A stretch of DNA of 64,000 bases from Planctomycetota bacterium (GTDB taxonomy: Bacteria > Planctomycetota > UBA1135 > UBA2386). The stretch covers positions 42,105 through 106,104 of the forward strand of contig JAQCBR010000001.1 of assembly GCA_027621295.1 (NCBI GenBank). Reading direction: 5' to 3'. Under the pieces are notes generated by a model that was not told where the DNA came from, ran no database searches, and saw nothing but the letters and a program-made list of their open reading frames with translations. The first letter of the stretch is position 1. Each line of letters begins with the position of its first letter. The translations under genes and the position numbers were made by a program. This document shows positions 4,055-41,086 of this stretch, in pieces.

Positions 4055-4065
4055 ACGAGAGCGAC

Positions 4066-5040
<975 letters not shown>

Positions 5041-5146
5041 TCCTGGGTTCTGCCGCCCCGAAGTGGACTCGGCGGGGAGGCACGGCAAAGATGCGCGGTT
5101 CCCCGGGTGACGGATGTCCCGGGGATTCCGCATCGTCCAGAGTCCC

Positions 5147-7089: not shown

Positions 7090-7132
7090 GCAGCTCCCTC
7101 GAGCGCACTCATCCCCGCAAGGGCAGTCTCCC

Positions 7133-7870: not shown

Positions 7871-7882
7871 ATCGCGGGTCCT

Positions 7883-12521: not shown

Positions 12522-12605
12522 GTGGCGCTGATCGAACGTTTCGACGCCACGCGGCCGCGGACGCGCGGGCCGGTGTCCGCTTCGCGGGGGGTGCTCCGTG
12601 CGTGA
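12522..12605 (+). CDS. Possible 27-aa micro-ORF coupled to downstream ligase gene
   Basis: GTG preceded by GGAGGG; stop TGA overlaps start of 12598 gene. Confidence 0.3.
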   Translation: MALIERFDATRPRTRGPVSASRGVLRA

Positions 12606-18265: not shown

Positions 18266-19110
18266 ATCTCCTCCGGTCGACTCCGATGTGGATGCTCGGT
18301 CTGCCGCTCGCGGTGGCTTACCTGGGCAGCCTCGTCTGGGTCTGGGACATGTGGTTCTTCCGCGAGGCGTACTACTCGCACGGCCCGCTGGTCGTCCTCG
18401 CGGTGATGTGGCTGGTGCACGACCGCCGTCGCGAGTGGCAGCGCGCGGCCTCGTCGGTGGACCCACGAGGCTGGTGGTTGCTGGGCCCCGCGCTGGCGAT
18501 GCACGCCATCGGCGGCGCGCTGACCATCGATTCGCTGTCCGCGGCGTCCCTGGTGCCTGCGATCGCCGGCCTCGTGTGGCTCGGTCAGGGGCGGGCGCGG
18601 CTCGGTGCGCTGCTGTCCATCCTCGGCCTCCTGCTGTTCGCGATTCCGACGCCGCTCGTCATCCAGAGTCGGATGGCGTTCGAGCTCAAGGAGTGGGCGG
18701 TCGAAGGCGGGCTCCTCCTCGCGCAACTCCTCGGAGTCGGCGCGGAGCGCGTCGGCAGCGAGGTGCGCATCCCTGGCCAGAGCGGTTCCCTGATCGTTGC
18801 GGACGCGTGCAGCGGTCTCCGGTCGTTGGTCGCGCTGATCACCCTCGGCTACGGGATCGCGTTCTTCATGGGGCCGCAGCGGGGCATCCGCCGGTGGGCG
18901 ATCCTGGCCGCCGCCGCGCCGGTCGCCGTGGCGACCAATGCGGTGCGGATCGGAGCGATCTGCGTGCTGGCGTCCGGCTACGGAACGGAGTTCGCGAGCA
19001 CGACGGGGCACGACTGGATCTCTGGAGCGGTATGGCTCGTGGATCTCGGTCTCCTGCTCGGTCTCGACGCCGCGCTGTCGCGTCGGCGCACCGTGGAGGC
19101 GTCACGATGA
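18262..19110 (+). CDS. xrtA: Exosortase (XrtA-like)
   Basis: Multi-TM; Cys in ADACSGLRSL, Arg in ATNAVRI, His in GHDWISG; EpsI follows; ATGA overlaps both sides. Confidence 0.9.
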   Translation: MNLLRSTPMWMLGLPLAVAYLGSLVWVWDMWFFREAYYSHGPLVVLAVMWLVHDRRREWQRAASSVDPRGWWLLGPALAMHAIGGALTIDSLSAASLVPAIAGLVWLGQGRARLGALLSILGLLLFAIPTPLVIQSRMAFELKEWAVEGGLLLAQLLGVGAERVGSEVRIPGQSGSLIVADACSGLRSLVALITLGYGIAFFMGPQRGIRRWAILAAAAPVAVATNAVRIGAICVLASGYGTEFASTTGHDWISGAVWLVDLGLLLGLDAALSRRRTVEASR

Positions 19111-19736
19111 AGGGGCTCCGCCGCCATCTCGTCGTGCTCTGGTGTCTCGCGCCCGTCCTGCTCGTGCTGACGACGTGGCGACCCGAGGGCGGAGACCGTG
19201 GGCGCGCTGCCAGGATTCCGGATGACCTCGCCGGTTTCCGCTCGTCCGTCGAGTATCCGCTGTCTCCCTCCGTGCTCGACATGCTCGGCACGCCGGACGC
19301 CGCCTGGCGGCGATACGACCGGGACGACGAGCAGGTCTTCGTGATCGGTGTCTTCCACGACGAGAACTGGAAGAGCGTCCATCCGCCCGAGACGTGCCTG
19401 CGCGGCTCCAACATGGAGGTCGTGCTCGAGGAGACGGTGGGCGCAGGTGCCGACGCAGCGGGCCAGGAGTACGGTCTGCTGCTGATGCACGCGCTGGACC
19501 GGGACCAGGACTACCTGAGCCTGTACGTCTTCCTCGCCGACGCCGAGTTCGCGACGCCCGGCTACTGGTCGTTCTTCGCGCACCACGCGCCGCGGGCGCT
19601 GCTGCGGCAGAGCGTTTCCGGGTGTCTGCTGCGGGTCGAGACGTGGGTCGACGGAGATGGGGTCGACGCCGCCACGGCGCGGTGCCGTGAGGTGCTCGGA
19701 GCCCTGGTCGCTGCTGCCCGGAAGGAGCTCCGCTGA
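19107..19736 (+). CDS. EpsI-like (exosortase C-terminal/associated) protein
   Basis: SVEYPLSPSVLDMLGTPDAAWRRY, VFHDENWKSVHPPETCLRG; N-terminal TM. Confidence 0.85.
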   Translation: MKGLRRHLVVLWCLAPVLLVLTTWRPEGGDRGRAARIPDDLAGFRSSVEYPLSPSVLDMLGTPDAAWRRYDRDDEQVFVIGVFHDENWKSVHPPETCLRGSNMEVVLEETVGAGADAAGQEYGLLLMHALDRDQDYLSLYVFLADAEFATPGYWSFFAHHAPRALLRQSVSGCLLRVETWVDGDGVDAATARCREVLGALVAAARKELR

Positions 19737-19738
19737 CC

Positions 19739-20641
19739 GTGGCGAACGGGGATCACACCTGGGCGCATGCGCTTTCCGTCGACGTCGAGGACTACTTCCA
19801 GGTGCTCAACCTGGCGAAGCACGTCGATCGACGCGACTGGGACCGTCTGGAACTTCGCTGCGGCGAGAGCACGCGCCGCTTGCTGCGTCTCTTCGAGACC
19901 CGCGGCGCGCGGGCGACGTTCTTCTTCCTGGGATGGATCGCCGAGCGGCTCCCGGACCTCGTCCGTGAAGTCGCCGCGGCGGGCCACGAGATCGGCTCGC
20001 ACGGCTACGACCACAAGGTGCTGTCGGCTCTGGGGGAGGATGGCTTCCGCGACGACCTCCAGCGCACGGCCTCGATCCTCGAGGACATCGTCGGGGTGCG
20101 GCCGACTTCCTTCCGTGCGTGCACGTGGTCGGTGCACGCCGGGACGATGTGGGCTCCTCGCATGCTGCGGGAGTTGGGCTACGACCTGGACAGCTCGATC
20201 CAGCCCGTGTCTCACCCCGACTACGGGGTTCCGGGTGCTCCGAAGGTGCCCTACCGGATCCACGTCCCCGGCGGGGACGCGCTCGCCGAGTTCCCGCCGC
20301 TGACGGTGCGCATTGCCGGTCGGACGATTCCGGTGGGCGGAGGTGGCTACCTGCGCCTGTTCCCGACCTGGATGTTCGCCCGCGGTCTCCGCCAGATGGA
20401 GGCCCGCGGCTGGCCGGGTTGCATCTACCTCCATCCGTGGGAGGTCGATCCCGAACAGCCCCGGTACCCCGTCGGCGGGCTGAGGGGATTCCGCCACTAC
20501 GTGAACCTGCACCGGACCGAGGCGAAGCTGGATCGGTTGCTCCGGCAGTTCCGCTTCGTGGGGCTGACCGAGGCGCTGGCCCAGCCGGGTGTGCGGAGCC
20601 GCATCTCGGCGCAGGACCCGATCGACGTCGGCGCCGTCTGA
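19739..20641 (+). CDS. Polysaccharide deacetylase, XrtA/PEP-CTERM-locus type
   Basis: HALSVDVEDYFQV, GARATFFFLGWIAERLPDLVREVAAAGHEIGSHGYDHK, FRACTWSVHAGTMWAPRML. Confidence 0.9.
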   Translation: MANGDHTWAHALSVDVEDYFQVLNLAKHVDRRDWDRLELRCGESTRRLLRLFETRGARATFFFLGWIAERLPDLVREVAAAGHEIGSHGYDHKVLSALGEDGFRDDLQRTASILEDIVGVRPTSFRACTWSVHAGTMWAPRMLRELGYDLDSSIQPVSHPDYGVPGAPKVPYRIHVPGGDALAEFPPLTVRIAGRTIPVGGGGYLRLFPTWMFARGLRQMEARGWPGCIYLHPWEVDPEQPRYPVGGLRGFRHYVNLHRTEAKLDRLLRQFRFVGLTEALAQPGVRSRISAQDPIDVGAV

Positions 20642-20697: not shown

Positions 20698-23600
20698 TCA
20701 GCGCGACAGCTGGCGTGCGAAGTGCTCGGCCGAGACGGTCAGGGGGCTCTCGGGATATTGGGACGCGCAGGCTTCCATCAGCGCGCGCGCTTCTTCGTGA
20801 CGCCCGAGCGGCATCAGCGCGAGTCCCCGGTAGTACAGGTGGGCTCCGTCCGGGCGGGTCGCGGCCTGTTCGAGCAGTTCGACGGCCTTCTCGTAGGCGG
20901 CCCGGCGGAGTGCGATCAGCCCGCGCGTCAGCAAGGCGTCCGGAGTCTCGAGCTGTGCTGGGTCGAGGATCTGGTCCTCGACGACCCTCAGGTCGTCCTC
21001 GTGGACGACGCCTTCCCGCGCGGAGAGCTCCACGCAGTCGAGGATGGAAGGGTGGGTGGGGACGTAGTGGTGAATCCACCGGAGGCCGTCGATGGCCTCG
21101 TCCGGCTCACCCTCCTGCGCGATCCAGCGTGCGCGCTGGATCCAGATGGCGATCAGGCTCGGGTCGACGCGGAGTCGCTCGGTCGCCAGGTCGATGGCGG
21201 CCCGGCGGCCCCGGAGTTCGGCGAACCGCTGGAGGGTCGCGAGCAGCATCGAGGTCTCGCCGGGGACGCCTTCGCGCACCGCGCGGAGATGGGTCTCGAG
21301 CAGACTCGCGAGGCTCCGGACGCGGTCGGGGTCGCGGCGATCACCGAGCGGACCGCGCGTCGCAAGGTCGCGGTCGAACAGGAAGTGGGCCGAAACTCCG
21401 ATCGAGCCGTCGAGCGCCATGAAGCGGCGTGCCCTGGACTCGGCGTCCCGCGCCACGGTCGTGGCTCCGGCGTCCGCGGCCGCGAGGCGAGCGTTCGCCA
21501 TCGCGAACGCGAGGGTCGCGAACCGGCGCCGCTGGTCGGACGTCACGTGGGGTTCGACCGCGTCGCAGAGCTGGAGCGCGAGATCCGGGCGGCCAACCGC
21601 GCCGAGGACGGCGATCTGGTCCAGGCTGGTCTCGCCGCCAGCGGGCGACGTGAGCCAGAGCGCGGCCAGTTCCTGCACCGAGCTCGACTCCTCACGGAGG
21701 CGGGCCACCAGCTGCGTCGCACGCTGGCGCGTCGCGTAGGCGACCATGCGAGGCGTCGCGAGTCCGGACTGGAGCAGCGCCGGTTGGGTCAGGCGGGCGA
21801 CGACAGGCGAGTCGGCGTAGCGGAATCCCGTCGGCCCTTCGAGTGCGTCGAGCGCCTCCTCGTAGGCCGGGACGAGCAGCGGTTCGTCGGCGAGCACCGC
21901 ATCGAGCGTCGTCAGCGCCTCGTCGATCCGACCCGCGCGCATCAGCACGCGTGCCAGCAGGATCCGCGCGACGGCGTTCTGGTCGGTGTTCTCGGCCAGC
22001 GACTGCGCCCGACGGATCGCACGCTCCTCGAAACCCTCGGCGTCCAGGAACGCAAGGCAGTCGAGGAGTTCGCTCGGCGCTGCATCCGCGAGGCTGCGGA
22101 ACGGAGCGGGGAGCTTGTCGCTCGGCGCCACCACGGCGGCGAGGGCGAGACCTCCCGCGTCAGCTGGGCGTTCGGCCAGGCGGCGGCGCACCCAGGCAGC
22201 TGCAACACCCTGGCGCCCGAAGCGCGCGAGGAGCGCCGCAGACGTCAGGTCGTTGCCCTCCTGCTCCCAGAAGCTCTCGCTCGCCTCGGTGAAGCGCTCC
22301 CGTTCCAGCTGGAGCAGGGTGATCAGACGACCGGCGACCTGGGAGGACGGGAAAGTCAGGGCGGCGAGGAAGTGGTGCTCGGCGTCGTCGAGGTCGCCGA
22401 GTTCCAGCGCGATCCGGCCGGCGAGCAGGTAGTGCTCTCCCGCACGGAGCTGCGCGTTGTCCTCGTCCTGCAGCAGGGGAGCGAGGAGTTCCTGTGCGTA
22501 GGCGGGCTGGCCCCTCTCGTAGAGCTCGCCCGCGAGCATCGCGAGCCGCGTCGGGTCCTCGCGGTGAAGCCGTGCCGCGCGTGACACGATCTCGCGCACC
22601 TCGGCCGCGTCGGCGACCGTGGTCGCCGTCAGCACGACGTAGCGGTCGAACGCGTCGCTGAAGCCCGCGTCTCCGCTCCGCGCCGCGAGCTCGTTCGCGC
22701 GGAGCAGCGTCTGGCGCGCGCCGCTGAGGTCGCCGCTGTCTTCCTGGATGCGCGCGACCGCGAGCAGTGCGGCCGGGTCGTCGCGGTATCGCCTCTCGAT
22801 GGTGCGTGCGAGGTGACCGGCGAGCGTCGTATCGCCCCGGACCAGCGCGTTCTCGAGGAGAGCGCGCGTCGTGGTCGCATCTTCCTGGCCGGCGAGCAGC
22901 AGGTCGTAGACGAGGTCGTCCGAGTCCTGTCCGAGCTGGCGCCTCGCCTCACGGAGATCGAGGAGCGCGTCGAGGTTGCCGGGGTGATAGGTGAGGATCG
23001 CTTCGGCCGCGCGGCGTGCGCCGTCGGGATCTCCGAGGGCGAGGGCTGCCTGGACCTGGAGCTGACGTGGCCAGCGCGCCCAGTTGAAGCGGTCGGCGGC
23101 CCGGCGCGCGCATGCGGCGGCGATCTTCGGGTGTCCGGCGCGGAGCGCCTCCTCGGCGATCGGCAGCAGCAGGACGTCCGGGACGTCGAGCGGCACTTCG
23201 ATTCCGAGCTCGAGACAGCGTCCGACCTGCGTCGCAGGGCCGCGGCCGGCCTTGTCCAACTGTCCGGCGACCGACCGCGCCTCGAGCTTCAGGTACTCCT
23301 CGTCGTGGTCCGCGACGCGTCGCGCGCTGCGGAGTTCGAGGAGAGCGCCCTCGGGGTCGTCCTGCTCGATGCGGAAACGCGTCTGCTCCAGCGACGGGCG
23401 GGGGTCCTGGGGGTCGAGCCTGGCGAGCGTCTGGTACGCGTACTGGAAGAAGTCGACGCCGAAGTTCCGCTCGGTGGCGATCCGCAGACGGATGTTCATC
23501 ACCTCGATGCGGCGTTGGACCACTTCGGGGCTCTGGGGGAGGTCGGCGAGCGCCTCGTTGTAGGCGGCGAGGTCCCGCATCGCGTCGTAGTCGCGATCCT

Positions 23601-24738
23601 CCTGCTCGGCCAGCGTCGCGCGGCACCACAGCAGGTCGGGCATCAGAGAGACGCGGCCGTCGGCTTCGATCTCCTCCGCCTCTGCGACGCGCTGCCTCAG
23701 GGTCTCGGTCTCTCCGAGTGCTGCGAGCGAACGGGCCTCGGCGAGGAGCAGGCGGGCGAGCGTCTGGTCGAGACGGCCGGCGTCGAGGCTTTCGCGCCAC
23801 GTGCCCGGGGGCAGGAAGCGCTCGCGGACTTCGGTGGCGGCCCGGTGTCGACCGTGCTGGAGGTGGACCTCCGCGAGGTGGGCGGCAGCCAGGGTCACGT
23901 AGACGTGCTCGAACCTCTCCAGGTAGATCTCGGCCAGCCACTGCAGGTCGTCGAACCTCCCTGCCTGGCGCAGCGCGTAGGCGACGCCCGTGTACGCGCC
24001 GACCGGCGAACCGTCGTTCTCCAGCGCGCGCGAGAAGTAGTCGATCGCCTGGGAGACCATCGAGCGGATCTCCTGGAGTTCGGTCTCGAGGCGTCCGCTC
24101 GCAGCGATCTCGGGGCGGACCGTGCGCAGGAGTTCGCTGAAGCGCTCGATCGCGAGGTTCGCGACCGGATCGCGGGAGCTGCGGTAGACCCAGCTGCGGA
24201 TCGACGTGAACGCCTGTTCGGCGCTGATGGGGTCGAACTGGGCCCCGACCTCCACCAGGATTTCGCGGAGTCGGGACTGGTAGATGGCCTGGGACGCTTC
24301 GCCGGCGAGCTCGAGCATCGCCGAGTCGGTGGCGTGCGTGTCGAGGAACGACTGTGCGAGCGTGAGCGCCGGCTCGGGAGCCCCGCTGACGATCGTCCAG
24401 CGGACCTCGTCGCGGACGAGATCCAGGTCTTCCGGGAGACGCTCGCGAAGCCTCTGGATGTCGCGGATCGCGGGAGGGTAGTTGCCGACCGCCAGGAACG
24501 AGTCGATGCGCAGACGCAGCATCTCGATCTGGAGTTCGCGCGGGCTGTCCGCTCCGAGACTCCTCTCCGCGATGTCGAGCAGGCGGATCGCCGCGAGGTG
24601 GTTGCCGCGCGATGCCTCCTCACGCGCGGCGGCGACTTGGGACTCGGGGCCGGACAGTCCCAGCAGCGCGTAGCCGAGCGTCGCGGCGAGGACCAGCAGG
24701 ACGAGCCCGAGGAAGACGGTCAGTGTGCGGCGAAACAT
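20698..24738 (-). CDS. Very large (1346 aa) membrane-anchored tetratricopeptide-repeat protein
   Basis: N-terminal TM MFRRTLTVFLGLVLLVLAATLGYALL; repeated TPR-like helices throughout. Confidence 0.85.
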   Translation of the reverse strand: MFRRTLTVFLGLVLLVLAATLGYALLGLSGPESQVAAAREEASRGNHLAAIRLLDIAERSLGADSPRELQIEMLRLRIDSFLAVGNYPPAIRDIQRLRERLPEDLDLVRDEVRWTIVSGAPEPALTLAQSFLDTHATDSAMLELAGEASQAIYQSRLREILVEVGAQFDPISAEQAFTSIRSWVYRSSRDPVANLAIERFSELLRTVRPEIAASGRLETELQEIRSMVSQAIDYFSRALENDGSPVGAYTGVAYALRQAGRFDDLQWLAEIYLERFEHVYVTLAAAHLAEVHLQHGRHRAATEVRERFLPPGTWRESLDAGRLDQTLARLLLAEARSLAALGETETLRQRVAEAEEIEADGRVSLMPDLLWCRATLAEQEDRDYDAMRDLAAYNEALADLPQSPEVVQRRIEVMNIRLRIATERNFGVDFFQYAYQTLARLDPQDPRPSLEQTRFRIEQDDPEGALLELRSARRVADHDEEYLKLEARSVAGQLDKAGRGPATQVGRCLELGIEVPLDVPDVLLLPIAEEALRAGHPKIAAACARRAADRFNWARWPRQLQVQAALALGDPDGARRAAEAILTYHPGNLDALLDLREARRQLGQDSDDLVYDLLLAGQEDATTTRALLENALVRGDTTLAGHLARTIERRYRDDPAALLAVARIQEDSGDLSGARQTLLRANELAARSGDAGFSDAFDRYVVLTATTVADAAEVREIVSRAARLHREDPTRLAMLAGELYERGQPAYAQELLAPLLQDEDNAQLRAGEHYLLAGRIALELGDLDDAEHHFLAALTFPSSQVAGRLITLLQLERERFTEASESFWEQEGNDLTSAALLARFGRQGVAAAWVRRRLAERPADAGGLALAAVVAPSDKLPAPFRSLADAAPSELLDCLAFLDAEGFEERAIRRAQSLAENTDQNAVARILLARVLMRAGRIDEALTTLDAVLADEPLLVPAYEEALDALEGPTGFRYADSPVVARLTQPALLQSGLATPRMVAYATRQRATQLVARLREESSSVQELAALWLTSPAGGETSLDQIAVLGAVGRPDLALQLCDAVEPHVTSDQRRRFATLAFAMANARLAAADAGATTVARDAESRARRFMALDGSIGVSAHFLFDRDLATRGPLGDRRDPDRVRSLASLLETHLRAVREGVPGETSMLLATLQRFAELRGRRAAIDLATERLRVDPSLIAIWIQRARWIAQEGEPDEAIDGLRWIHHYVPTHPSILDCVELSAREGVVHEDDLRVVEDQILDPAQLETPDALLTRGLIALRRAAYEKAVELLEQAATRPDGAHLYYRGLALMPLGRHEEARALMEACASQYPESPLTVSAEHFARQLSR

Positions 24739-24804: not shown

Positions 24805-26181
24805 TCAGGAGATGCCCAGGCGGCGCATCTTGTTGAACAGCGTGCTCCGGTTGATGCCGAGGCTCTCTGCGGTGCGCTGCCGATTCCCCTCGAAGTGATC
24901 GAGGGCGCGTTGGATCAACATCCGCTCAGGGCCCTCGAGGGCCTGCTTGAGCGGCAGCAGGTGCGCGTCGCCGCCGAGCATCGACATCGGCGTCGGGTCG
25001 TCGGAGTGGTGGACGGGACCATCGAGGTCCGGCGGCAGGTCCGAGACTCCGATCTCGTCGTGTTCGCAGAGCACGACGGCACGCTCGATCACGTTCTCGA
25101 GTTGGCGGACGTTGCCGGGCCATCGGGCCCGCTCGAGGGCGATCATCGCGTCGGGACGGAAGCCGCGGACATCGCGGCGGGTCTCCGCGACGAACCGACG
25201 CAGGAAGTGCTCCGCGAGGAGCCCGACGTCGCCGGGACGAGCCCGGAGCGGCGGGACCTCGACCGAGATCACGTGGATGCGGTAGTAGAGATCCTCCCGG
25301 AAGCGTCCCTCGCGGACCTCGGTGGCGAGGTCGAGGTTCGTCGCCAGCACGACCCGGACGTCGACGGGGATCGTTCGCGACTCGCCGACCCTCTCGACCA
25401 CGCGGTCCTGGAGCACGCGGAGCAGCTTGACCTGGAGGCTCGGGGACGAAGTGCCGATCTCGTCCAGGAAGATCGTTCCGCCGTGCGCCTCCTCGAACTT
25501 GCCGGGTCGGTCGCGGACCGCACCCGTGAACGCGCCGCGCACGTGCCCGAACAGCTCCGACTCGAGCAGGTTCTCCGGCATCGCGCCGCAGTTCACCTCG
25601 ATGAACGGTCCGTCCGCGCGGTCCGACGAGCGGTGGAGCGCGCGGGCGAGCAGCGTCTTGCCGGTGCCCGATTCGCCGGTGATCAGCAACGTCGAGCGGG
25701 TGCCCGCGACCGCGCCGATCGTCTTGAAGATCCTCTGCATGCGCGGATCGGAGGACACGAAGTTGTCGAGCTTGAGCCGGTCGTCGAGCGCGTGCCGGAG
25801 CGTTCGGTTCTCGCGGACCAGGCGACCGTTCTCGAGGGAGCGGCGCACGGCGACGCCCACCTGCTCCTGGGTGAAGGGCTTCGGCAGGAAGTCCGCGGCA
25901 CCGTCGCGGAGCGCGACCACTGCGTCCTCGACGCTGCCGAACGCGGCCACGAGGACGACCGCGGTGTCGCTCCCTCGCTGCCTGAGATGCGCCAGCAGCT
26001 CAGCAGGCGCGAGGCCGGGCAGGTGCGCGTCGGCCACGACCAGGTCGAAGGTCTGGGCCTCCAGCGCGTCCAGCGCCTCGTGCGCGCCGGGAACGGCTCG
26101 GACCGCCGTCTCCCTGAGCCGGCAGTCCTCGAGCATTTCGGCGGTCTCTGGATCCGGATCGATGACAAGGATCGACGGCAT
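24805..26181 (-). CDS. Sigma-54-dependent response regulator (REC-AAA+-Fis), PrsR-like
   Basis: MPSILVIDPDPETAEML, VVADAHLPG, GESGTGKTLLARALHR, GAFTGA, GTIFLDEIG, C-terminal HTH GINRSTLFNKMRRLG. Confidence 0.92.
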   Translation of the reverse strand: MPSILVIDPDPETAEMLEDCRLRETAVRAVPGAHEALDALEAQTFDLVVADAHLPGLAPAELLAHLRQRGSDTAVVLVAAFGSVEDAVVALRDGAADFLPKPFTQEQVGVAVRRSLENGRLVRENRTLRHALDDRLKLDNFVSSDPRMQRIFKTIGAVAGTRSTLLITGESGTGKTLLARALHRSSDRADGPFIEVNCGAMPENLLESELFGHVRGAFTGAVRDRPGKFEEAHGGTIFLDEIGTSSPSLQVKLLRVLQDRVVERVGESRTIPVDVRVVLATNLDLATEVREGRFREDLYYRIHVISVEVPPLRARPGDVGLLAEHFLRRFVAETRRDVRGFRPDAMIALERARWPGNVRQLENVIERAVVLCEHDEIGVSDLPPDLDGPVHHSDDPTPMSMLGGDAHLLPLKQALEGPERMLIQRALDHFEGNRQRTAESLGINRSTLFNKMRRLGIS

Positions 26182-26195
26182 GCGCACTCCTCCGC

Positions 26196-26211
26196 GTCCA
26201 GAAAACTGGAC
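26196..26211. promoter_or_regulatory. Dyad gtccag-aaaa-ctggac 14 bp upstream of regulator start
   Basis: Perfect 6-bp arms, 4-nt centre, direct reading. Confidence 0.4.
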
Positions 26212-26278
26212 CCTCGTCGATATCGGGCGACGGCGCGGCCCAGGTTGAGGAGTTCGGGGCGGACCCCTGGAGGAGCCG

Positions 26279-27322
26279 TCAGTCGGCGGCCCGCGGCAGC
26301 AGCAGATCGAGGAGCACCGTGCCGTCCGGCCGCCTGCGAGCCGTCGCCGCGCCGCCGTGGGCGTGCACGACCGTCTGCGCGAGGAACAGGCTGAGACCGT
26401 GCGGAGTTCCTCGCAGCACGCGCTGCAGGCTGTACGGATCGAACGCCTTCGGCAGCTGCCAGTCGCCGAGTCTGAGTCCTCGCGCCTCGATCCGGATCCT
26501 CGCGCCGTCACCCGGCGTGGCCAACAGGATCGACACCTCCTCGGCGACGGCGGAGAGCGCTGCTCCGACCGCGCAGAACGCGTGGACAGCGGCTCGGAGA
26601 AGGCTCGGATCTCCCTCCACGAACACGTGGTCGAGGTCCGGGGGTGCGAAGATCCGCGCCGCCGGATCGCCGTCCGGCGCCTCGAAGTCCTTCAGCAGCG
26701 GGATCAGATCGACCAGGGTCCCCGGCTCGCGGAGATGCCGGGCGCGCCCGATCGTGCGGATGCGGTCCATCGTCGCGCTGATCCGATCGAGTCCCCGGCG
26801 CGCCGCCGACAGCTGCTCGAGTGCTTCGGGGTCCCGCTCCGGGTCCAGCATCGCCTCGAGGAGCTGGAGGTGGCCGACGGTGAACAGCAGCGGGTTGTTG
26901 ATCTCGTCCGAGATCCCCTTCGACAGGTCGAGGAAGGCCTCGGGGTCGGGGCGACCGTCGCCGGCGTCGGCATGCCCGAGCGCGGCGGCGACCGTGCGGC
27001 GGTCGAAGGGTCGGGTCAGCACCTGGGCCCGGAGACGCTCCGCGAGCGCGGAGAGCTCGAACTCGCGCTCGTTGGGGCCGAGCAGCACGAGTCGGAGGCC
27101 CGGGAGGGCGAGACGCAGCACGCGGAGCGCGCCCACCTCCTCGGGATCGTCGAGCGAGCCGTCGTGGAACAGCGTCTCCGGCGGGTCGTCGAGCGTCTGC
27201 TCGAGCGCGTCGAACAGGCTTCCCGCGACCTCGACGACCGGTCGCTCGGGTCGTGCCTCGAGCAGGCGTGCCAGATCACCCGCTGGGTCGCGGATGACGA
27301 CGATCCTGGCACGTTCGGTCAT
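26279..27322 (-). CDS. Degenerate histidine-kinase-like protein with receiver-like N-terminus
   Basis: DLSKGISDEINNPLLFTVGHLQLLEAML resembles HisKA H-box with H->D; G-box-like GLSLFLAQTVVHAHGG; N-terminal REC-like fold with LTRPFD. Confidence 0.75.
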   Translation of the reverse strand: MTERARIVVIRDPAGDLARLLEARPERPVVEVAGSLFDALEQTLDDPPETLFHDGSLDDPEEVGALRVLRLALPGLRLVLLGPNEREFELSALAERLRAQVLTRPFDRRTVAAALGHADAGDGRPDPEAFLDLSKGISDEINNPLLFTVGHLQLLEAMLDPERDPEALEQLSAARRGLDRISATMDRIRTIGRARHLREPGTLVDLIPLLKDFEAPDGDPAARIFAPPDLDHVFVEGDPSLLRAAVHAFCAVGAALSAVAEEVSILLATPGDGARIRIEARGLRLGDWQLPKAFDPYSLQRVLRGTPHGLSLFLAQTVVHAHGGAATARRRPDGTVLLDLLLPRAAD

Positions 27323-27835: not shown

Positions 27836-28846
27836 ATGACCCGGTTCCACGCACCCCGACACAGCCGCACCCAGACTGCCGCGACCGCGCCGCGGGTCAG
27901 CGTCGTCGTGCCGCTGTTCAACGAGGTGCAGAACCTGCTGCGGCTCCACGAATCGCTGTCCTACGCGCTCGGCTCGGCGGCAGCGCGGTTGGGGAGCTAC
28001 GAGATCCTGTTCGTCGACGACGGCAGCGACGACGGAACGCGGGACCTGCTGCGGCGTCTCGCCGCCGACGACCCGCACGTGCGCGCCGTGCTGTTCCGCA
28101 AGAACTGCGGGCAGACCGCAGCGATGTCGGCCGGGTTCGAGATGGCGCAGGGTGAGATCGTTGTCTCGATGGATGGCGACCTGCAGAACGACCCGAGCGA
28201 CATCCCGCGGCTCGTCGAGCGGCTCGAGGACGGGTTCGACATCGTCTGCGGCTGGCGCCGGCACCGGCAGGACAGCTTCGCGACGCGACTCCTGCCGTCG
28301 ATGATCGCCAACCAGCTGATCCGCTGGGCGACCGGGGTGCCGATCCATGACACCGGCTGCTCGCTCAAGGCGTACCGCGCCTGGGTGGTGCGCAACCTGC
28401 ACCTGTACTCGGACATGCACCGGTTCATCGCCGCGCTCGGCGCGGGCCTCGGCGCGCGCATCACCGAGCTGCCGGTGCGTCACCACCCGCGAATCTACGG
28501 CCAGTCGAAGTACGGGCTGGGCCGGATCTTCCGGGTCGTCATCGACCTCGTCGTCATCAAGATGCTGATCCAGTTCGCGGCCCATCCGATCCGATGGTTC
28601 GGGATGTTGGCCGCGCCGCTGTTCCTGATCTTCGTGGCTCTGCTCGGGGTCGGCTTCCTGAAGTTCGAAGAGGGCAGACTCGGTCTGCTCTGGAACTACA
28701 ACAACTTCTACGTCGCGGGAGCCGCGGTGGCTGCGCTGTTCGGATTCAACGTCTTCCTGCTCGGCTTCCTCGCGGAGCTCCAGCTCAAGGCCTCGCGCTT
28801 CTTCCGGCGACGCATCGCGATCACCGCGACGGAGGCGGCGCGCTGA
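27836..28846 (+). CDS. Glycosyltransferase family 2 (dolichol-phosphate-mannose-synthase/ArnC-like) with C-terminal TMs
   Basis: VSVVVPLFNEVQNLLRLHESL, ILFVDDGSDDGT, VVSMDGDLQNDPSDIP, HDTGCSLKAYR. Confidence 0.93.
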   Translation: MTRFHAPRHSRTQTAATAPRVSVVVPLFNEVQNLLRLHESLSYALGSAAARLGSYEILFVDDGSDDGTRDLLRRLAADDPHVRAVLFRKNCGQTAAMSAGFEMAQGEIVVSMDGDLQNDPSDIPRLVERLEDGFDIVCGWRRHRQDSFATRLLPSMIANQLIRWATGVPIHDTGCSLKAYRAWVVRNLHLYSDMHRFIAALGAGLGARITELPVRHHPRIYGQSKYGLGRIFRVVIDLVVIKMLIQFAAHPIRWFGMLAAPLFLIFVALLGVGFLKFEEGRLGLLWNYNNFYVAGAAVAALFGFNVFLLGFLAELQLKASRFFRRRIAITATEAAR

Positions 28847-30915
28847 TGGTGGGCCACACCGATGCCGACTTCGTGTCGGTCGTCATCCCGGTCAACAACC
28901 CGTCGGTCGACGTCGGTCGCCTCGTGCAGGGCTACAGCGAGCCGCTGCGCTCGGCTGGCTATCCGTTCGAGCTGATCTTCGTGCTCGACGGCGTCCACGG
29001 CCGGATCGTCGAGGATCTCGCCGAACTCTCCTCCGAACACCCGGTCAAGACGGTCCGGCTGCAGGGCGACGGGCTCGGTGAGTCGATCGCGCTCTCGGCG
29101 GGTGTCGCGCGCGCACGCGGCGCGTTCATCCTGAACGTGCCGCAGTACCTGCAGGTCGAGCCCGACGATCTCGTCAAGATCGTCCAGGCGCTCGAGTCGG
29201 GCGCGGACTTCGTCGCGACGTGGCGCCACCCGCGCGTCGATCCCTGGCTGAACCGCGTCCAGTCGACCGTGTTCAACTGGGTGCTGCGCGCGGTGATGGG
29301 AATCCGCTTCCACGACCTGAACTCGGGCGTGCGCGGCATGCGCCGCCAGGTGCTCGAGGAGGTCAGCGTCTACGGCGAGATGTTCCGGTTCCTGCCGGTC
29401 CTCGCGCTGCGGCAGGGCTTCAACGTCGTCGAGGTGAAGGTCCGGCACCGCGAGGAGCAGGGGACGCTGCCCTTCTACGGGATCGGCGTCTACGTGCGCC
29501 GCGTCCTCGACATCCTCGCGATCAGCTTCCTGACGCGGTTCACGCAGAAGCCGCTCCGGTTCTTCGGGATCCTCGGGATCATCGCGATCCTGATCGGGAT
29601 CGCGGTCAGCCTGAACCCGCTCTACGAGCGCGTGATCCAGGACGTGAGCATCGCGGACCGTCCGATCTTCGTGCTGGGCGTGATCCTCGTCGCGTTCGGC
29701 GTGCAGCTGATCGGTTTCGGGCTGGTCGGTGAGATCATCATCTTCACCCAGGCGAGCCAGATGCGGGACTACCGCGTCGACGAGGTCGTGCAGGTCGAGG
29801 GACCGCAGCCGAGTGACGGTGCCGTCGCCGATGCCGTCGATGCAGCGCTCGGCAGGGCCGAGCCGCGCGAGGATTCTCCGGCGCTCCGCGTGCGCGAGCT
29901 GCTGCCCGGTGAAGACGCGCGTTGGGACGCGTTCGTGCACGGTCACGAGCACGGGTCGTTCTTCCATCTGTCCGGATGGAGACGAGCTGTGGAGGAGACC
30001 TTCCACCACGAGGCGCACTACCTCGTTTGCGAACAAGGGCGTGCGTGGCGCGGCGTGCTGCCGGTCTTCCACATCAGGAGCCCGTTCCTCGGCAAGCAGA
30101 TGATCTCGGTACCCTACGGGGTCTACGGGGGCGTGCTCGCGGGCGACGAGGACGTGCAGCAGGCGCTGATCGATGCCGCGTGCCAGCAGGGGCGTCGCCT
30201 CGCGGCCGGATACCTGGAGCTTCGTCACCTGGCACCGCGACCCGGCGACCGGGTGCGTTTCGATCTCTACGTGACCTTCCGGAAGGAGCTCCCCGCAACC
30301 GTCGACGAGGTGCTGCCGTCGATCCCGAAGAAGGCGCGTGCGGAGGTGCGCCGAGCGCGCGATCGCTTCTCGATGACCTTCGAGGAGCTGGACGACGTCT
30401 CGGTGTTCTTCGAGCTGTTCTCCGAAGAGAAGCGACGGCTGGGCACACCGTCCCTGCCACAGTCTTGGTTCGAGAACCTGCGCGAGGAGTTCGGCAAGGC
30501 GGTGGTCCTGCACGTGGTCCGCGACGCGGATCGCCGGCCGATGTGCGCGGTGATGAGCTTTCTCTACAAGGACGCGGTCTACGCCTACTACTCCGGCTCC
30601 AGCAACGAGGCGCGCGGCAAGGGCGTCGCGGACTTCGTCTACTGCAAGATCATGGAGTGGGCGATCGAGCGGGGCTTCCGCGTGTTCGACTTCGGGCGCA
30701 GCCGTCGCGACACCGGAGCCGCGAAGTTCAAGCAGAACATGGGCTTCGAGCCCGAGCCGCTGCACTACGACTTCACGCTGCTGCGTGCCGACGCCAAGCT
30801 GCCGGAGTTCCATCCGAGCAACCCGAAGCTGCAGGGGCCGCGGCGCATGTGGTCGAAGTTGCCGAAGGGTGTCGCAAACCGCGTCGGTGCCCGGCTGTCG
30901 CGATACCTGCCGTGA
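28846..30915 (+). CDS. GT2-like domain (no DxD) + TMs fused to FemAB/GNAT-type domain (PEP-CTERM/XrtA FemAB-like)
   Basis: N-term VSVVIPVNNPSVDVGRLVQGY aligned to neighbouring GT2; C-term SFFHLSGWRRAVEETFHHEAHYLVCEQG..YAYYSGSSNEARGKGVADFVYCKIMEWAIERGFRVFDFGRSRRDTGAAKFKQNMGFEPEPLHYDF. Confidence 0.85.
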   Translation: MVGHTDADFVSVVIPVNNPSVDVGRLVQGYSEPLRSAGYPFELIFVLDGVHGRIVEDLAELSSEHPVKTVRLQGDGLGESIALSAGVARARGAFILNVPQYLQVEPDDLVKIVQALESGADFVATWRHPRVDPWLNRVQSTVFNWVLRAVMGIRFHDLNSGVRGMRRQVLEEVSVYGEMFRFLPVLALRQGFNVVEVKVRHREEQGTLPFYGIGVYVRRVLDILAISFLTRFTQKPLRFFGILGIIAILIGIAVSLNPLYERVIQDVSIADRPIFVLGVILVAFGVQLIGFGLVGEIIIFTQASQMRDYRVDEVVQVEGPQPSDGAVADAVDAALGRAEPREDSPALRVRELLPGEDARWDAFVHGHEHGSFFHLSGWRRAVEETFHHEAHYLVCEQGRAWRGVLPVFHIRSPFLGKQMISVPYGVYGGVLAGDEDVQQALIDAACQQGRRLAAGYLELRHLAPRPGDRVRFDLYVTFRKELPATVDEVLPSIPKKARAEVRRARDRFSMTFEELDDVSVFFELFSEEKRRLGTPSLPQSWFENLREEFGKAVVLHVVRDADRRPMCAVMSFLYKDAVYAYYSGSSNEARGKGVADFVYCKIMEWAIERGFRVFDFGRSRRDTGAAKFKQNMGFEPEPLHYDFTLLRADAKLPEFHPSNPKLQGPRRMWSKLPKGVANRVGARLSRYLP

Positions 30916-31011: not shown

Positions 31012-32709
31012 TCACCCGCCTTGCCGCGGATCGGGTCTCGGCTCGAGCCGCGGGATCTGGTCGTCCGGAATCGTGGCTTCGACCCTCATCGCGGACAGGT
31101 CGACGACGAGTCCGCCGCAGCGGACCTTCGACCAGATCTTGGCGCCCGTGATCACGTCGTCGGTCGAGCAGGGTGACTTCGTGCCGAGCGCCGTCCAATC
31201 GGCTGCATCCACATCTCGATGCCAGGTCGTCAGGCTGTCCCCGACGCGGGTCAGCTTCAGGAAGCCGGCGCGGCCCGGGATCGGGTGGCGTCCGGTCAGC
31301 TCGCCCTCGAGTCCCGCGGCCGCGGAGATCTCGCCGATGCGATCGGCCGTCGACATCAGCTGCGCGTAGTAGCGAGCGGTGGAGGGCTCGTTCTGGACGA
31401 ACAGCCCGAGGCACGCGGAGTCCGGGCCCGGCTCCCAGGTCCGGACGTCGTAGCGGACCTCGATCGTGAAGTCGCCGCGGAGTCTCGTCGGGAGGTAGAA
31501 GCCCGACGACGTGATCGGACCCAGTTGGCCCGCCGCGAACGCGATCCGCATCGCTGGCTCTCCGTCGACCGGCTCGATGTCCACCTCGGCGAGCTTGGGG
31601 TGTCGGTAGCGGGCGATGCCGCGATCCGCGAGGCGGGGGTCGTTGTCCGGGAACACGAACGGGATCCCGCCGCTCAGGTAGGAGTTGTGCTCGATCAGGA
31701 GCGTGCGGATCCGCGCGATCGCATCCGCGAGGGCAGCGTCGATGCGGGCTTCCTCTGCGTCGGCCGCTCCGGCGGAGAAGGCCGGGTAGGCGTCCGCGCT
31801 GACGCCCAGCGCCTTCAGTTCCAGCAGGAAGTGGTGAGCGATCAGCGGCGCCTCGGCGTTCTCCTGCCCATCGAAACGGAGGCTCGGGAGTGCCTCCGGG
31901 CCGACGAGCCGCGCGCGGATGTCGTGCTCGCGGCACGTGTCCTCGAAGCACCTCGACAGAGCGGCGCCGCGGGCCGCGAGCTCCGTCGCGACGGGAGCGG
32001 AGCGGATCTCGGCGACCGTCGCCAGCGCGAGCTCGAGTGCCACGGGCGACGGACTCGGGTCGTCGACGCGGTTCGTTTCCGGGGCGTCTCCCGTCTGCGC
32101 GAGCGCGGCGAAGCTGGCTCCTGCCGCCAGCGACTCGCCGACGAGGATCGCGTCCGGGCTGGGCTGGAGGCCGGACGCGCACAGCGCGTCGGCGAGTCGT
32201 CCCGCGGTCCGTGTCTCGTCGGCGACGAGGATCGCGCCAGCTTCCCGAGCGGCTCCCGCGATCCGCGCCCAGTCGTCCGGCGACAGTCGCGGCTCGACGA
32301 CGACGCATGCGGGCGCGTCGGCGCCGCAGGCGGCGATCGCATCCTCGAGAGGTCGGGCAGGGCCGTACTCCGCTGCCGCCCAGCTCGGCGAGCACACGAC
32401 CGTCGCATCCCGGCCGGTCGTGGCGCGCGCGGATGCGATCACCGCGGACAGCGCGGCGGCCGAGTCCTTCCAGAGCGTCCAGCGGAGCGAAGGGCCGCCG
32501 AACGCCCGAAGCTCTGCGAGCAGGCGAGGTGCGGGTTCGTCGCGGTCGCCGGCGAGCCGGGCTTCCAGGCGGTCGCGGCGCCCTGGATGTTCGTGCGCGA
32601 GGAGCGGGGTATCGCCGGAGAGGCCGTGCGACGACGGACCGATCGCGGGAGGATCGACGTCGTGGTGGCGGGCCAGCAGAACGAGCAGCTCGTCGAGTGC
32701 GCGCGGCAT
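31012..32709 (-). CDS. Class-III aminotransferase-like (GSAM-fold) domain lacking PLP lysine, fused to C-terminal LamG/DUF1349-like beta-sandwich
   Basis: WKDSAAALSAVIASARATTGRD, ILVADETRTAGRL, DAILVGESLAAGASFAAL (E at lysine position); C-term FTIEVRYDVRTWEPGPDSACLGLFVQNE. Confidence 0.65.
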   Translation of the reverse strand: MPRALDELLVLLARHHDVDPPAIGPSSHGLSGDTPLLAHEHPGRRDRLEARLAGDRDEPAPRLLAELRAFGGPSLRWTLWKDSAAALSAVIASARATTGRDATVVCSPSWAAAEYGPARPLEDAIAACGADAPACVVVEPRLSPDDWARIAGAAREAGAILVADETRTAGRLADALCASGLQPSPDAILVGESLAAGASFAALAQTGDAPETNRVDDPSPSPVALELALATVAEIRSAPVATELAARGAALSRCFEDTCREHDIRARLVGPEALPSLRFDGQENAEAPLIAHHFLLELKALGVSADAYPAFSAGAADAEEARIDAALADAIARIRTLLIEHNSYLSGGIPFVFPDNDPRLADRGIARYRHPKLAEVDIEPVDGEPAMRIAFAAGQLGPITSSGFYLPTRLRGDFTIEVRYDVRTWEPGPDSACLGLFVQNEPSTARYYAQLMSTADRIGEISAAAGLEGELTGRHPIPGRAGFLKLTRVGDSLTTWHRDVDAADWTALGTKSPCSTDDVITGAKIWSKVRCGGLVVDLSAMRVEATIPDDQIPRLEPRPDPRQGG

Positions 32710-37277: not shown

Positions 37278-39362
37278 ATGTCGCTGCTCCATCCGTCGCG
37301 CTCTGCGTGTGGCCTCGCGTCGGCCGCCGTCCTGCTCCTCGCATCCGGGGCCGCGGCCCAGGGGCGTCGCCTGACCCCCGAGATGCTCTGGGACCTGGGT
37401 CGGGTCGCCGATCCCCAGGTCTCGCCCGACGGCCGCTTCGTGCTCTACCACCTGCGGAGCTACGACCTCGCTGCCAACCGAGGCAGCACGGTGATCCGTC
37501 GCCTGGAACGCAGTTCTGGCGAGGACGTGACGATCCCGTTCGGTCGATCCGCGTCCGGGGCGCGCTGGTCGCCGGACGGCTCGCGGCTCGCGTTCCTCGC
37601 CTCGTCGGTGGACGGCGAGCACGTGGGCACGACCCAGGTCTTCGTCTCGGACGCGGACGGCAGTGACGCGAAGCGTGTGACCGACCACGCCGGCGGCGTC
37701 TCGAACCTCGCCTGGTCTCCGGACGGCCAGCAGTTCTCGTTCACTGCGACGGTCCGGCTCGCCCCGACGCTCGTCGACCAGCACCCTGACCTGCCTCTCG
37801 CCGAGGCGCGGGTCTACGACGACCTGATGGTGCGGCACTGGGACACGTGGAAGGACGGCACCTACAGCCATCTCTTCGTGGTCCCGTCCGACGGTTCTTC
37901 GCCAGCGCGGGACCTGATGGCGGGCATGCGGGTCGACACGCCGCTGATGCCGTTCGGCGGCGGCGAGCAGATCGCGTGGTCACCCGACTCGACCGGTCTC
38001 GTGTACACCGCCAAGGTCTCCGACGCGCCCGAGTTCTCGACCAACAGCGACCTGTTCTGGGCACCGCTCGACGGCGGCACGCACCGCAACCTGACCCGCG
38101 GCTTCGGCGGCTACGACGTGGAGCCACGCTTCTCCCCGAGCGGCCAGTGGCTCGCCTGGGCGAGCATGGAGCGGAACGGCTACGAGTCGGACCAGAACCG
38201 GCTGTTCGTCCGCGCGTGGCCTCCCGGCGCCGACCCGGTCCGTGTCGATCGCTGGGACGGCACGGTCGGCAGCTTCTCGTGGCTTCCCGATTCGAGCGGA
38301 TTCCTGGTCGAAGCCGACTGGCGTGGGACGCACCAGGTCTTCCGGCTGCCCCTGGAGGGTGACGGAGTTCCGGCTGCCGTCACGAGCGGACGCTGGCACT
38401 TCGCGAGCGCGGTGCCGCTGCCGGACGGCTCGGGGTTCGTCGCTCTCCGGCAGCAGTCCGAGCGTCCGCACGAACTCGTCGAAGTCCCGCTCTCCGGCGA
38501 ACCCGTCGAGGGTGAGCTGCGCACCGATGTGAACGGTGCGGTCTATGCAGACCTCGATCTGCCGTCGGTCGAGGAGAGATGGTTCGATGCGACCGACGGC
38601 GAGAAGGTGCACGCCTGGGTGATCAAGCCGCCGGGCTTCGATCCGCAGAAGCGCTACCCGATGCTGCTCTACTGCCAGGGAGGGCCCCAGTCCCAGGTCG
38701 GGCAGTGGTTCAGCTACCGCTGGAACTTCCACCTGATGGCAGCGCGTGGCTACGTGGTCCTCGCGGTCAACCGTCGCGGGTTGCCGGGCTTCGGCACGGC
38801 CTGGAACGAGGCGATCAGCCGTGACTGGGGCGGACAGGCGATGCAGGACCTGCTCGCGGCGACCGACGCGATGATCGCGGAACCGTGGATCGATCCGCGA
38901 CGCGTCGGTGCGGTCGGCGCGAGCTACGGCGGCTACACCGTCTACTGGCTGATGGGCCACGATCAGCCCGATCGCTTCGCCGCGATGGTCGCACACTGCG
39001 GCGTCTTCAACCTCGAATCGATGTACCTGTCGACCGAGGAACTGTTCTTCGCGAACTGGGACCTGGGTGGGCCCTACTGGGGAGACGATCGGACACGCGC
39101 GGACTACGAGCGCTTCTCGCCGCACCGGTTCGTGCAGGACTGGGACACGCCGCTCCTGGTGATCCACGGGCAGCAGGACTTCCGGGTGCCTCTGGAGCAG
39201 GGGCTCCAGGCGTTCACCGGTGCCCAGGTCCGGGGCGTGCCCTCGCGCTTCGTCTACTTCCCCGGCGAGAGTCACTGGGTGCTCTCTCCGCAGAACGGTG
39301 TGCTCTGGCAGCGGCTCTTCTTCGACTGGCTCGACCGCCACCTGGCGCCGAAGAAACGCTGA
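37278..39362 (+). CDS. S9 family peptidase (prolyl oligopeptidase/acylaminoacyl peptidase)
   Basis: Beta-propeller TolB-like repeats; GASYGGYTVYWLMGH; GQQDFRVPLEQ; FPGESHWV. Confidence 0.95.
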   Translation: MSLLHPSRSACGLASAAVLLLASGAAAQGRRLTPEMLWDLGRVADPQVSPDGRFVLYHLRSYDLAANRGSTVIRRLERSSGEDVTIPFGRSASGARWSPDGSRLAFLASSVDGEHVGTTQVFVSDADGSDAKRVTDHAGGVSNLAWSPDGQQFSFTATVRLAPTLVDQHPDLPLAEARVYDDLMVRHWDTWKDGTYSHLFVVPSDGSSPARDLMAGMRVDTPLMPFGGGEQIAWSPDSTGLVYTAKVSDAPEFSTNSDLFWAPLDGGTHRNLTRGFGGYDVEPRFSPSGQWLAWASMERNGYESDQNRLFVRAWPPGADPVRVDRWDGTVGSFSWLPDSSGFLVEADWRGTHQVFRLPLEGDGVPAAVTSGRWHFASAVPLPDGSGFVALRQQSERPHELVEVPLSGEPVEGELRTDVNGAVYADLDLPSVEERWFDATDGEKVHAWVIKPPGFDPQKRYPMLLYCQGGPQSQVGQWFSYRWNFHLMAARGYVVLAVNRRGLPGFGTAWNEAISRDWGGQAMQDLLAATDAMIAEPWIDPRRVGAVGASYGGYTVYWLMGHDQPDRFAAMVAHCGVFNLESMYLSTEELFFANWDLGGPYWGDDRTRADYERFSPHRFVQDWDTPLLVIHGQQDFRVPLEQGLQAFTGAQVRGVPSRFVYFPGESHWVLSPQNGVLWQRLFFDWLDRHLAPKKR

Positions 39363-39433
39363 AATTCGCCCTGACCCCACCGATTCGCCCGCGCGACGTG
39401 CCTTCCTGGGCGTTCCTCCGAGAACACACACCG

Positions 39434-41086
39434 ATGCTCCGCAAGACCCTGATCGTCGTCCTGGCTGCCTCCGCAGTCGCCTTCGCCGCGGGCCACGAAG
39501 ACCTCGCCGCCGAGACCCAGGGGCCAGGACGCGGAATGGGGATGATGGGGCGGTCTGCGGCCTCCTCGGATCACTTCACCGATTCGAACGCGTGTGCTCT
39601 CTGTCACTCGGCAGCGACCACGGCCACGGCGCTGTGGAGTCCCACCGGCGACGACGTGTCGCCGCACGGCACCTGGAAGGCCACGATGATGGCCAACTCG
39701 TTCCGCGACCCCTACTGGCGGGCCCAGGTCAGCAAGGAGGTCGCTGCAGCTTCGACCGACGAGAAGAAAGCCGAGATCCAGGCGCTGTGCGTGACCTGCC
39801 ACGGACCGGCGGTGCACCACGAGGCGCGCCTCGCCGGCAAGGAGTCACCGGGTGTGTTCGCGAGCTACGGCAACGGGATGGCGGAGGACGGCGTGACCTG
39901 CACCGTCTGCCATCAGGCCCAGGGTGAAACGTTCGGAGAGCCGGCGAGCTTCAGCGGCAACCTCGACATCCGCCCCGGCCGCAAGATCTTCGGGCCGTAC
40001 GAGAACCCGTCGGCGCGGCCGATGCTCATGCACACGGGGTTCGAGGCGACGCACGGCCCGCACATCCGCGATGCGGGGCTCTGCGGTTCCTGCCACACGC
40101 TCTACACGCACCACGTCCCGGGCGGCGCGCCGTTCGCCGAGCAGACTCCGTACTTGGAATGGCAGAACAGTGCGTTCGCGGACGGAGGATCTGAAGGCGC
40201 GCGCACCTGCCAGGAGTGCCACATGCCCGAAGTGGGGGAGATGCGCATCGCGCGCAATCCGGCCGGCTTCGACTTCAACATCCCGGTGCGCGACGACTAC
40301 AGAGCCCATACGTTCGTCGGCGGCAACGCGTTCATGCTCGATCTGCTGCGTCGCAACAGCGACGAACTCGGCGTCAAGGCTGACGCAGACGCGCTGCGGC
40401 GGAACGCGCGGGCGACTCGCCGGCAGCTCGCGCACGAGACCGTCGCGCTGTCGGTCGTGGACGCCGAGCGCGGCGAGGGCGTCGTGTCGTTCGACGTCCG
40501 CGTCGAGAACAAGACCGGTCACAAGTTCCCGACCGGCTACCCGGCGAGGCGCGCCTGGCTGCGCGTCCAGGTGAGGGCGGGTCGCAGCGTGATCTTCGAT
40601 TCGGGTGCCTTCGACGAGAACGGGCGGCTCGAGGGTGTCCAGGACGAGCGCGGCCAGCCTCACCACGTCGTCATCGACGACGCGTCCCAGGTGCAGGTCT
40701 ACGAGGCGGTCGCAGGAGACGAAGACGGGGCTCCGACCACCTACCTGACGCGGATGGCGTCGCGGCTGAAGGACAACCGAATCCTGCCCAGGGGCTACCG
40801 GGCCGATGGGCCCTACGCCGCCGACACCGCGCCAGCTGGCGTGGGCGACGATCCGGACTTCACCGGCGGTGAGGATCGGACGTGCTACCGTGTCGCGCTC
40901 CCGGACGGCGTGAGCGGCAGCGGGGTCGTCGTGGTCGCTTGGATGCACTACCAGTCGGTGCCACCGGCCTGGGTCGACCCGCTGCGAGACGTCCAGACCG
41001 AGGAGGCCGAGCGCTTCGTGCGGATGTACGACGCAGCGGACAAGGCGCCGGAGACCGTTGGCGTGACCGTGCACGTCTTCGAGTGA
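39434..41086 (+). CDS. Secreted multiheme (five CxxCH) cytochrome c family protein
   Basis: CALCH, CVTCH, CTVCH, CGSCH, CQECH; signal peptide. Confidence 0.93.
   Translation: MLRKTLIVVLAASAVAFAAGHEDLAAETQGPGRGMGMMGRSAASSDHFTDSNACALCHSAATTATALWSPTGDDVSPHGTWKATMMANSFRDPYWRAQVSKEVAAASTDEKKAEIQALCVTCHGPAVHHEARLAGKESPGVFASYGNGMAEDGVTCTVCHQAQGETFGEPASFSGNLDIRPGRKIFGPYENPSARPMLMHTGFEATHGPHIRDAGLCGSCHTLYTHHVPGGAPFAEQTPYLEWQNSAFADGGSEGARTCQECHMPEVGEMRIARNPAGFDFNIPVRDDYRAHTFVGGNAFMLDLLRRNSDELGVKADADALRRNARATRRQLAHETVALSVVDAERGEGVVSFDVRVENKTGHKFPTGYPARRAWLRVQVRAGRSVIFDSGAFDENGRLEGVQDERGQPHHVVIDDASQVQVYEAVAGDEDGAPTTYLTRMASRLKDNRILPRGYRADGPYAADTAPAGVGDDPDFTGGEDRTCYRVALPDGVSGSGVVVVAWMHYQSVPPAWVDPLRDVQTEEAERFVRMYDAADKAPETVGVTVHVFE

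Follow-up and report, generated by a model that had tools for sequence, protein, structure and literature searches.

The gene at positions 28846–30915 of the forward strand of the window (the whole 64,000-nucleotide stretch of planctomycete DNA that was analysed, from a 4.6 Mb metagenome-type genome in 279 contigs) encodes, as modelled, a pseudo-glycosyltransferase of the polyisoprenyl-phosphate glycosyltransferase (ArnC/GtrB/DPM1) fold to which an XrtA-type FemAB transferase is joined by a flexible tether. The arrangement is built from known families; the combination itself is new. It suggests that a dead sugar-transferase acts as a scaffold bringing FemAB to lipid-linked sugars. With a probability of roughly 0.45, the degenerate GT2 half, which lacks the metal-binding DxD (hereafter GTN), would be a subunit paired with the intact GT2 encoded directly upstream (ACT), anchoring FemAB at the membrane site of lipid-linked sugar synthesis.

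Architecture of the Fused Gene

The fused gene is one unbroken frame of 689 aa, whose ATG at 28846 is overlapped by the stop codon of the upstream GT2 (TGATG) and whose own stop codon ends at 30915; coordinates below are on the forward strand unless stated otherwise. The degenerate GT-A domain and its juxtamembrane region occupy residues 1–212 (28846–29481), with a PF00535 match at residues 11–172 and a match to the ArnC model at residues 8–317 (105 bits). Homology to the ArnC/GtrB families is full-length over residues 8–317, both membrane helices included (ArnC 164 bits, GtrB 110 bits). The first of these helices, predicted at residues 236–265 (29551–29640), is aligned with the ArnC/GtrB membrane region, and the second, predicted with an amphipathic extension at residues 273–306 (29662–29763), ends in the family signature GFGLVGEIIIFTQ. 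A variable, poorly conserved linker (residues 302–341, 29749–29868; pLDDT below 50) leads to the FemAB double-GNAT domain (29878–30912), in which residues 358–689 match TIGR03019 (pepcterm_femAB) over model positions 1–330 of 330, at 332 bits against a cutoff of 260.35. The two helices and the C-terminal FemAB domain had both been read from the letters in the initial annotation, and profile and structure searches agree with it on each.

The AlphaFold2 model (mean pLDDT 84.8, pTM 0.56) consists of a GT-A fold, two long helices, the linker and a FemAB fold, and thus retains, in prediction, the GT-A fold and two C-terminal membrane helices of active polyisoprenyl-phosphate glycosyltransferases; given the low pTM and the low-confidence linker, the model does not give the relative placement of the two halves. 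For the N-terminal half, Foldseek searches against the PDB returned ArnC and GtrB; the matches of the C-terminal half were FemX, FemA and the aminoacyl-tRNA-dependent synthases Sba18/Sbb17. Acetyltransf_6, the top-ranked Pfam family for the C-terminal half, was set aside, as TIGR03019 and the FemX/Sbb17 fold fit better.

To our knowledge, the role of the FemAB protein in exosortase/exopolysaccharide loci is not established. In the fused protein, F628-K629 is invariant in alignments, and Lys629 (30730–30732) is aligned with the Lys of Sbb17; it is the proposed equivalent of FemX Lys305, by motif and not by full alignment. FemX Lys305 is a proposed catalytic residue, and DhpH-C needs Lys329 (reviewed in PMC12945691). 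From the FK motif and the FemX/Sbb17 fold, the favoured chemistry is transfer of an amino acid from aminoacyl-tRNA rather than acetyl or acyl transfer, to judge by sequence and model.

Loss of the Active Site

ACT (27836–28846) is an intact ArnC/GtrB-like polyisoprenyl-phosphate GT2 with the motifs DDGSDD, DGD and RxxGxSKY. The two substitutions on which the initial annotation based the loss of the DxD, FVDDGSDDGT to FVLDGVHGRI and VVSMDGDLQNDP to FILNVPQYLQVEP, are exact: LDGVHG (residues 47–52, 28984–29001) replaces DDGSxD, and P-Q-Y (residues 99–101, 29140–29148) replaces the DxD, which in GtrB is D94/D96 (PMC4728340). The comparison was extended to 96 distinct GTN sequences, 54 of them from separate genes, and to 96 distinct ACT sequences (94 readable at the DxD), all from Planctomycetota. 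Asp stands at both DxD positions in 94/94 readable ACT sequences and in nine of nine other planctomycete GT2s of the same superfamily, and in none of the 96 GTN sequences, which have P, T, W, A or G at the first position and Tyr at the second in every case (Tyr101 in the fused protein); two Asp of DDGSxD are mostly lost as well. The sequences make it very unlikely that GTN works as a conventional metal-dependent transferase.

The acceptor site is only partly retained. GtrB residues R122, R125, R200 and K132 are proposed to bind the acceptor phosphate (PMC4728340), and profile alignments with that structure place an R122 equivalent in 96/96 GTN sequences and an R125 equivalent in 95/96. The K132 equivalent is lost (Asn in 91/96), the R200 equivalent varies (E, K, R, Q and others), and nearly all GTN have also lost the S-K-Y loop Lys, so that from the set found in active enzymes (R122, R200 and the loop Lys) only the R122 equivalent is kept. 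The acceptor-site loop PRxxGxSKY is replaced by EEQGTLPF (residues 203–210, 29452–29475), with Glu204 in 95/96 orthologs. A clean Arg-to-Glu reversal at R200 is not claimed, as the gapped alignment puts the R200 equivalent at the variable position 203 and not at Glu204. A conserved Asp157 is also kept in at least 95/96 GTN; in the profile alignment, GtrB's own D157 is not aligned with it.

GTN has 57 columns that are at least 95% conserved, and 21 of these differ from the ACT consensus, which makes it a constrained family of its own. The conservation spans the whole GT-A domain, not the helices alone, and dN/dS lies between 0.03 and 0.34 in the five close GTN pairs for which it was computable; by this measure GTN is under purifying selection and is not debris. 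No ortholog with an intact DxD was found among the 96 GTN: separate-gene orthologs, which with a DxD would have spoken against a dead GT2 family, exist and lack it throughout, and the phylum's top-scoring sequences with an intact DxD belong to separate GT2s, for which the ACT profile gives the higher score. A decay of the GT2 that came with the fusion is ruled out, because GTN from unfused genes show these losses too, and in the tree the unfused state falls outside the fused clade. On the sequences compared, active-site loss is ancestral and complete, and GTN is an old family.

Conserved Linkage of ACT, GTN and FemAB

Across 201 related genomes and the 80 best public loci, GTN and FemAB are either fused or two adjacent genes, and the order ACT-GTN-FemAB is conserved. 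Nearly all named records in these public loci are Planctomycetota, including the complete genomes Pla163, Pla86 and Poly30; metagenome-assembled genomes labelled Singulisphaera and Candidatus Kuenenia are also among them. An ACT-type GT2 accompanies GTN in 79 of the 80 loci, and FemAB in 77 (41 fused, 36 separate); of the three without FemAB, L126 has none in 6 kb, and the other two stop 0.5 kb or less from GTN. Single-ORF fusions at 46–73% identity recur in many independent genomes and make up the 41 fused public loci, and no frameshift or assembly join was found; the fusion is genuine, as first annotated.

In a phylum sample of 296 planctomycete genomes, where GTN was called at a profile score above ~297 bits (next matches at most 272), TIGR03019 is present in 73 and GTN in 46. 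All 46 GTN genomes have TIGR03019, and in 43 it lies within 2.4 kb of GTN on the same strand (Fisher p ~3e-35, relatedness ignored); in one further genome (G378), GTN is cut by a contig end. Together with the fused clade, these counts bear out the earlier view that the GT2 and FemAB belong together. FemAB chemistry does not generally depend on GTN, since TIGR03019 occurs without it in ~26 of the 73 genomes. In two genomes, G280 (L143) and G040 (L145), GTN and FemAB are on different contigs, and G040 has two TIGR03019 matches.

Where GTN and FemAB are 1.5–2.4 kb apart, the gap holds an inserted gene with a PMT_2 or PMT match, which is clear in four loci (L052, L054, L146, L049) and weak in two (L150, L149). 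PMT-type GT-C enzymes are of the kind that use polyprenyl-phosphate sugars, and their position between GTN and FemAB suggests that such a user belongs to the module. No PMT-type gene was recognised in the window; 14 PMT_2 matches lie elsewhere in the genome.

A conserved neighbourhood does not prove contact. Partial Mantel correlations between the distances of the three proteins are about equal (GTN-ACT 0.39, GTN-FemAB 0.51, ACT-FemAB 0.51), so that the mirror-tree approach singles out no one partner.

Origin of the Fusion

A 136-sequence tree sets GTN apart from ACT and the other active GT2s, and places the 42 fused sequences in one group (SH-aLRT 96) inside the separate ones. As the fused group is nested among separate genes, the simplest history is a single fusion event that joined two genes already standing side by side.

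Outside Planctomycetota, the breadth of the survey is three alphaproteobacterial plasmid loci, in Indioceanicola profundi, Leisingera sp. NJS201 and Rhodobacteraceae bacterium S2214, in which a DxD-less GT2 directly follows an active GT2 and shares with GTN the C-terminal signature GLVGEII[IV]F. The tandem pairs lie at 4766–6873 (L155), 3896–5948 (L158) and 6962–8936 (L160); two have a Wza-type export gene on one side and a tyrosine autokinase gene on the other, and one precedes a flippase-like gene. A search of L155 and L158 gave no FemAB match, and the annotations of the L158, L160 and L162 stretches list none. A 63-sequence tree places the alphaproteobacterial DxD-less GT2s on the side of GTN (one change); each member of the alphaproteobacterial pair, ACT and GTN, adjoins its counterpart from one planctomycete, G280, several of these branches being modestly supported. 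As these DxD-less GT2s have an active GT2 at their side but no FemAB in the stretches covered, pairing with the active GT2 may predate the link to FemAB.

The Surrounding Exosortase Locus

The fused gene lies in an exosortase/exopolysaccharide locus. Upstream in the window are an exosortase-A-associated O-glycosylation ligase (12598–13992, TIGR03097), an XrtA-type amidotransferase (14018–15868; 703 bits with TIGR03108, below the cutoff of 816.9, and above cutoff with the asparagine synthase model TIGR01536), the exosortase itself (18142–19110; TIGR02602, 134 bits, cutoff 105.6) and an XrtA system polysaccharide deacetylase (19739–20641, TIGR03006), followed on the reverse strand by a PrsT-like TPR protein (20698–24738, below the TIGR02917 cutoff) and a PrsR-like sigma-54 response regulator (24805–26511, below the TIGR02915 cutoff). 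An open reading frame at 18252–19733 was rejected as one gene; in its place stand the exosortase and an EpsI-type gene in another frame.

Three other frames deserve mention. Beside the fused gene, a 565-aa frame on the reverse strand (31012–32709) has no Pfam or NCBIfam match; by eye it resembles a class-III PLP aminotransferase with its Schiff-base Lys replaced (GESLAAG), followed by a beta-sandwich-like tail, and is possibly another pseudoenzyme. A 733-aa frame at 38885–41086, with weak cytochrome c7 and MtrC/MtrF-like matches, could encode a multihaem cytochrome or could be spurious. A 1018-aa protein on the reverse strand (60611–63667), with three Big_5 Ig-like domain matches, is a candidate surface protein.

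Proposed Function and Alternatives

How might a dead GT2 serve a FemAB transferase? GtrB is a tetramer in which each protomer gives two helices to a membrane bundle (PMC4728340). Because the homologues are tetramers and ACT is the most constant neighbour of GTN, GTN would form mixed oligomers with ACT through the membrane-helix bundle. It would thereby hold FemAB at the cytoplasmic face of the membrane, where ACT would synthesize the undecaprenyl-phosphate-sugar, and before export FemAB would load the lipid-linked sugar or glycan with an amino acid, whose donor would probably be aminoacyl-tRNA. The modified sugar would then find its use outside; its probable user in some lineages would be the PMT-type GT-C of the same cluster. 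We infer the oligomer, the donor and the substrate of this module. Taken as a whole, and put forward tentatively as possible rather than probable, the module would be a two-subunit polyisoprenyl-phosphate glycosyltransferase with a conserved pseudoenzyme as one subunit. The task of this subunit would be to recruit an aminoacyl-tRNA-dependent transferase, and lipid-linked surface-polymer sugars would be aminoacylated at the membrane in the course of their synthesis.

The initial annotation proposed that GTN may be a binding platform presenting a lipid-linked glycan to FemAB, a model taken here as independent of ACT. Part of this stands, as the metal site is lost and FemAB is linked and, in the window, fused. 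The R122 and R125 equivalents and Asp157, kept in at least 95/96 GTN, and the many invariant polar residues point the same way; the model needs only that the pocket bind a ligand, and this retained Arg pair and these polar residues are enough to keep it in play. The part that would make GTN a typical acceptor binder fares less well, since the K132 and R200 equivalents and the S-K-Y Lys are gone and the acceptor loop has a fixed Glu. Moreover, with DxD-less relatives standing beside an active GT2 without FemAB, a pairing of GTN with the active GT2 is at least equally plausible. On balance an independent platform is rather unlikely. The 21 GTN-specific conserved positions may exceed what a scaffold needs, and could indicate a ligand.

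That GTN is still an active, metal-independent glycosyltransferase with altered chemistry appears distinctly improbable. Loss of the DxD does not always mean inactivity, as bacterial GT6 enzymes swap the metal for protein contacts (PMC3961637), and GTN does have a conserved-residue set of its own; however, a bulky Tyr at the second DxD position in 96/96, the loss, for the most part, of two DDGSxD Asp, the loss of acceptor-site residues, and an intact paralog directly beside it all speak against catalysis. The prospects of a mere membrane anchor or stability partner for FemAB are slimmer again: the two predicted membrane helices and the flexible 40-residue linker before FemAB would suit such a role, but conservation runs across the whole GT-A domain, and GTN-like genes occur without an adjacent FemAB. 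A frameshift, assembly join or decaying pseudogene, for which no support was found, can practically be dismissed, given continuous open frames in many independent genomes, purifying selection, and DxD loss also in unfused genes, including those of Pla163, Pla86 and Poly30.

Comparison with Known Systems

The literature searched on FemAB with exosortase and on pseudo-glycosyltransferases of the GTN type held no direct precedent. A conserved active/inactive pair of polyisoprenyl-phosphate glycosyltransferases in two phyla would be a new arrangement for this enzyme family, with no description found in that literature, and a pseudo-glycosyltransferase recruited in this way would clearly be of interest, provided that its oligomer and substrate were demonstrated. 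With ArnC, GtrB and DPM1, GTN shares full-length homology, the predicted fold, the R122/R125 equivalents and Asp157; it differs from them in having no DxD, a degenerate DDGSxD and no S-K-Y acceptor loop, in the loss of the R200 and K132 equivalents, and in its fusion to FemAB. Plant IRX9/IRX14 (PMC4132061), examples of non-catalytic GT partners, share with GTN the idea that a polymer pathway may need a GT-fold protein that has no transfer activity itself; in contrast to GTN, they belong to another family, are eukaryotic and have no fused transferase.

The ArnC-ArnD-ArnT pathway combines an undecaprenyl-phosphate-sugar synthase with a PMT-type GT-C, as do the clusters of several GTN lineages. 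Unlike in that pathway, no PMT-type gene is recognised in the window. FemX/FemA and the streptothricin-type synthases Sba18/Sbb17 have in common with the C-terminal half the double-GNAT fold and the FK motif with its proposed catalytic Lys, a likeness drawn from sequence and predicted fold at a structure-alignment identity of 12–19%. With the XrtA/PEP-CTERM FemAB of TIGR03019 there is a full-length match above cutoff and a shared exosortase/exopolysaccharide setting; that FemAB is usually a stand-alone gene, whereas here it is fused to, and preceded by, a dead GT2, a fusion that ties the XrtA-type FemAB to the lipid-linked-sugar step.
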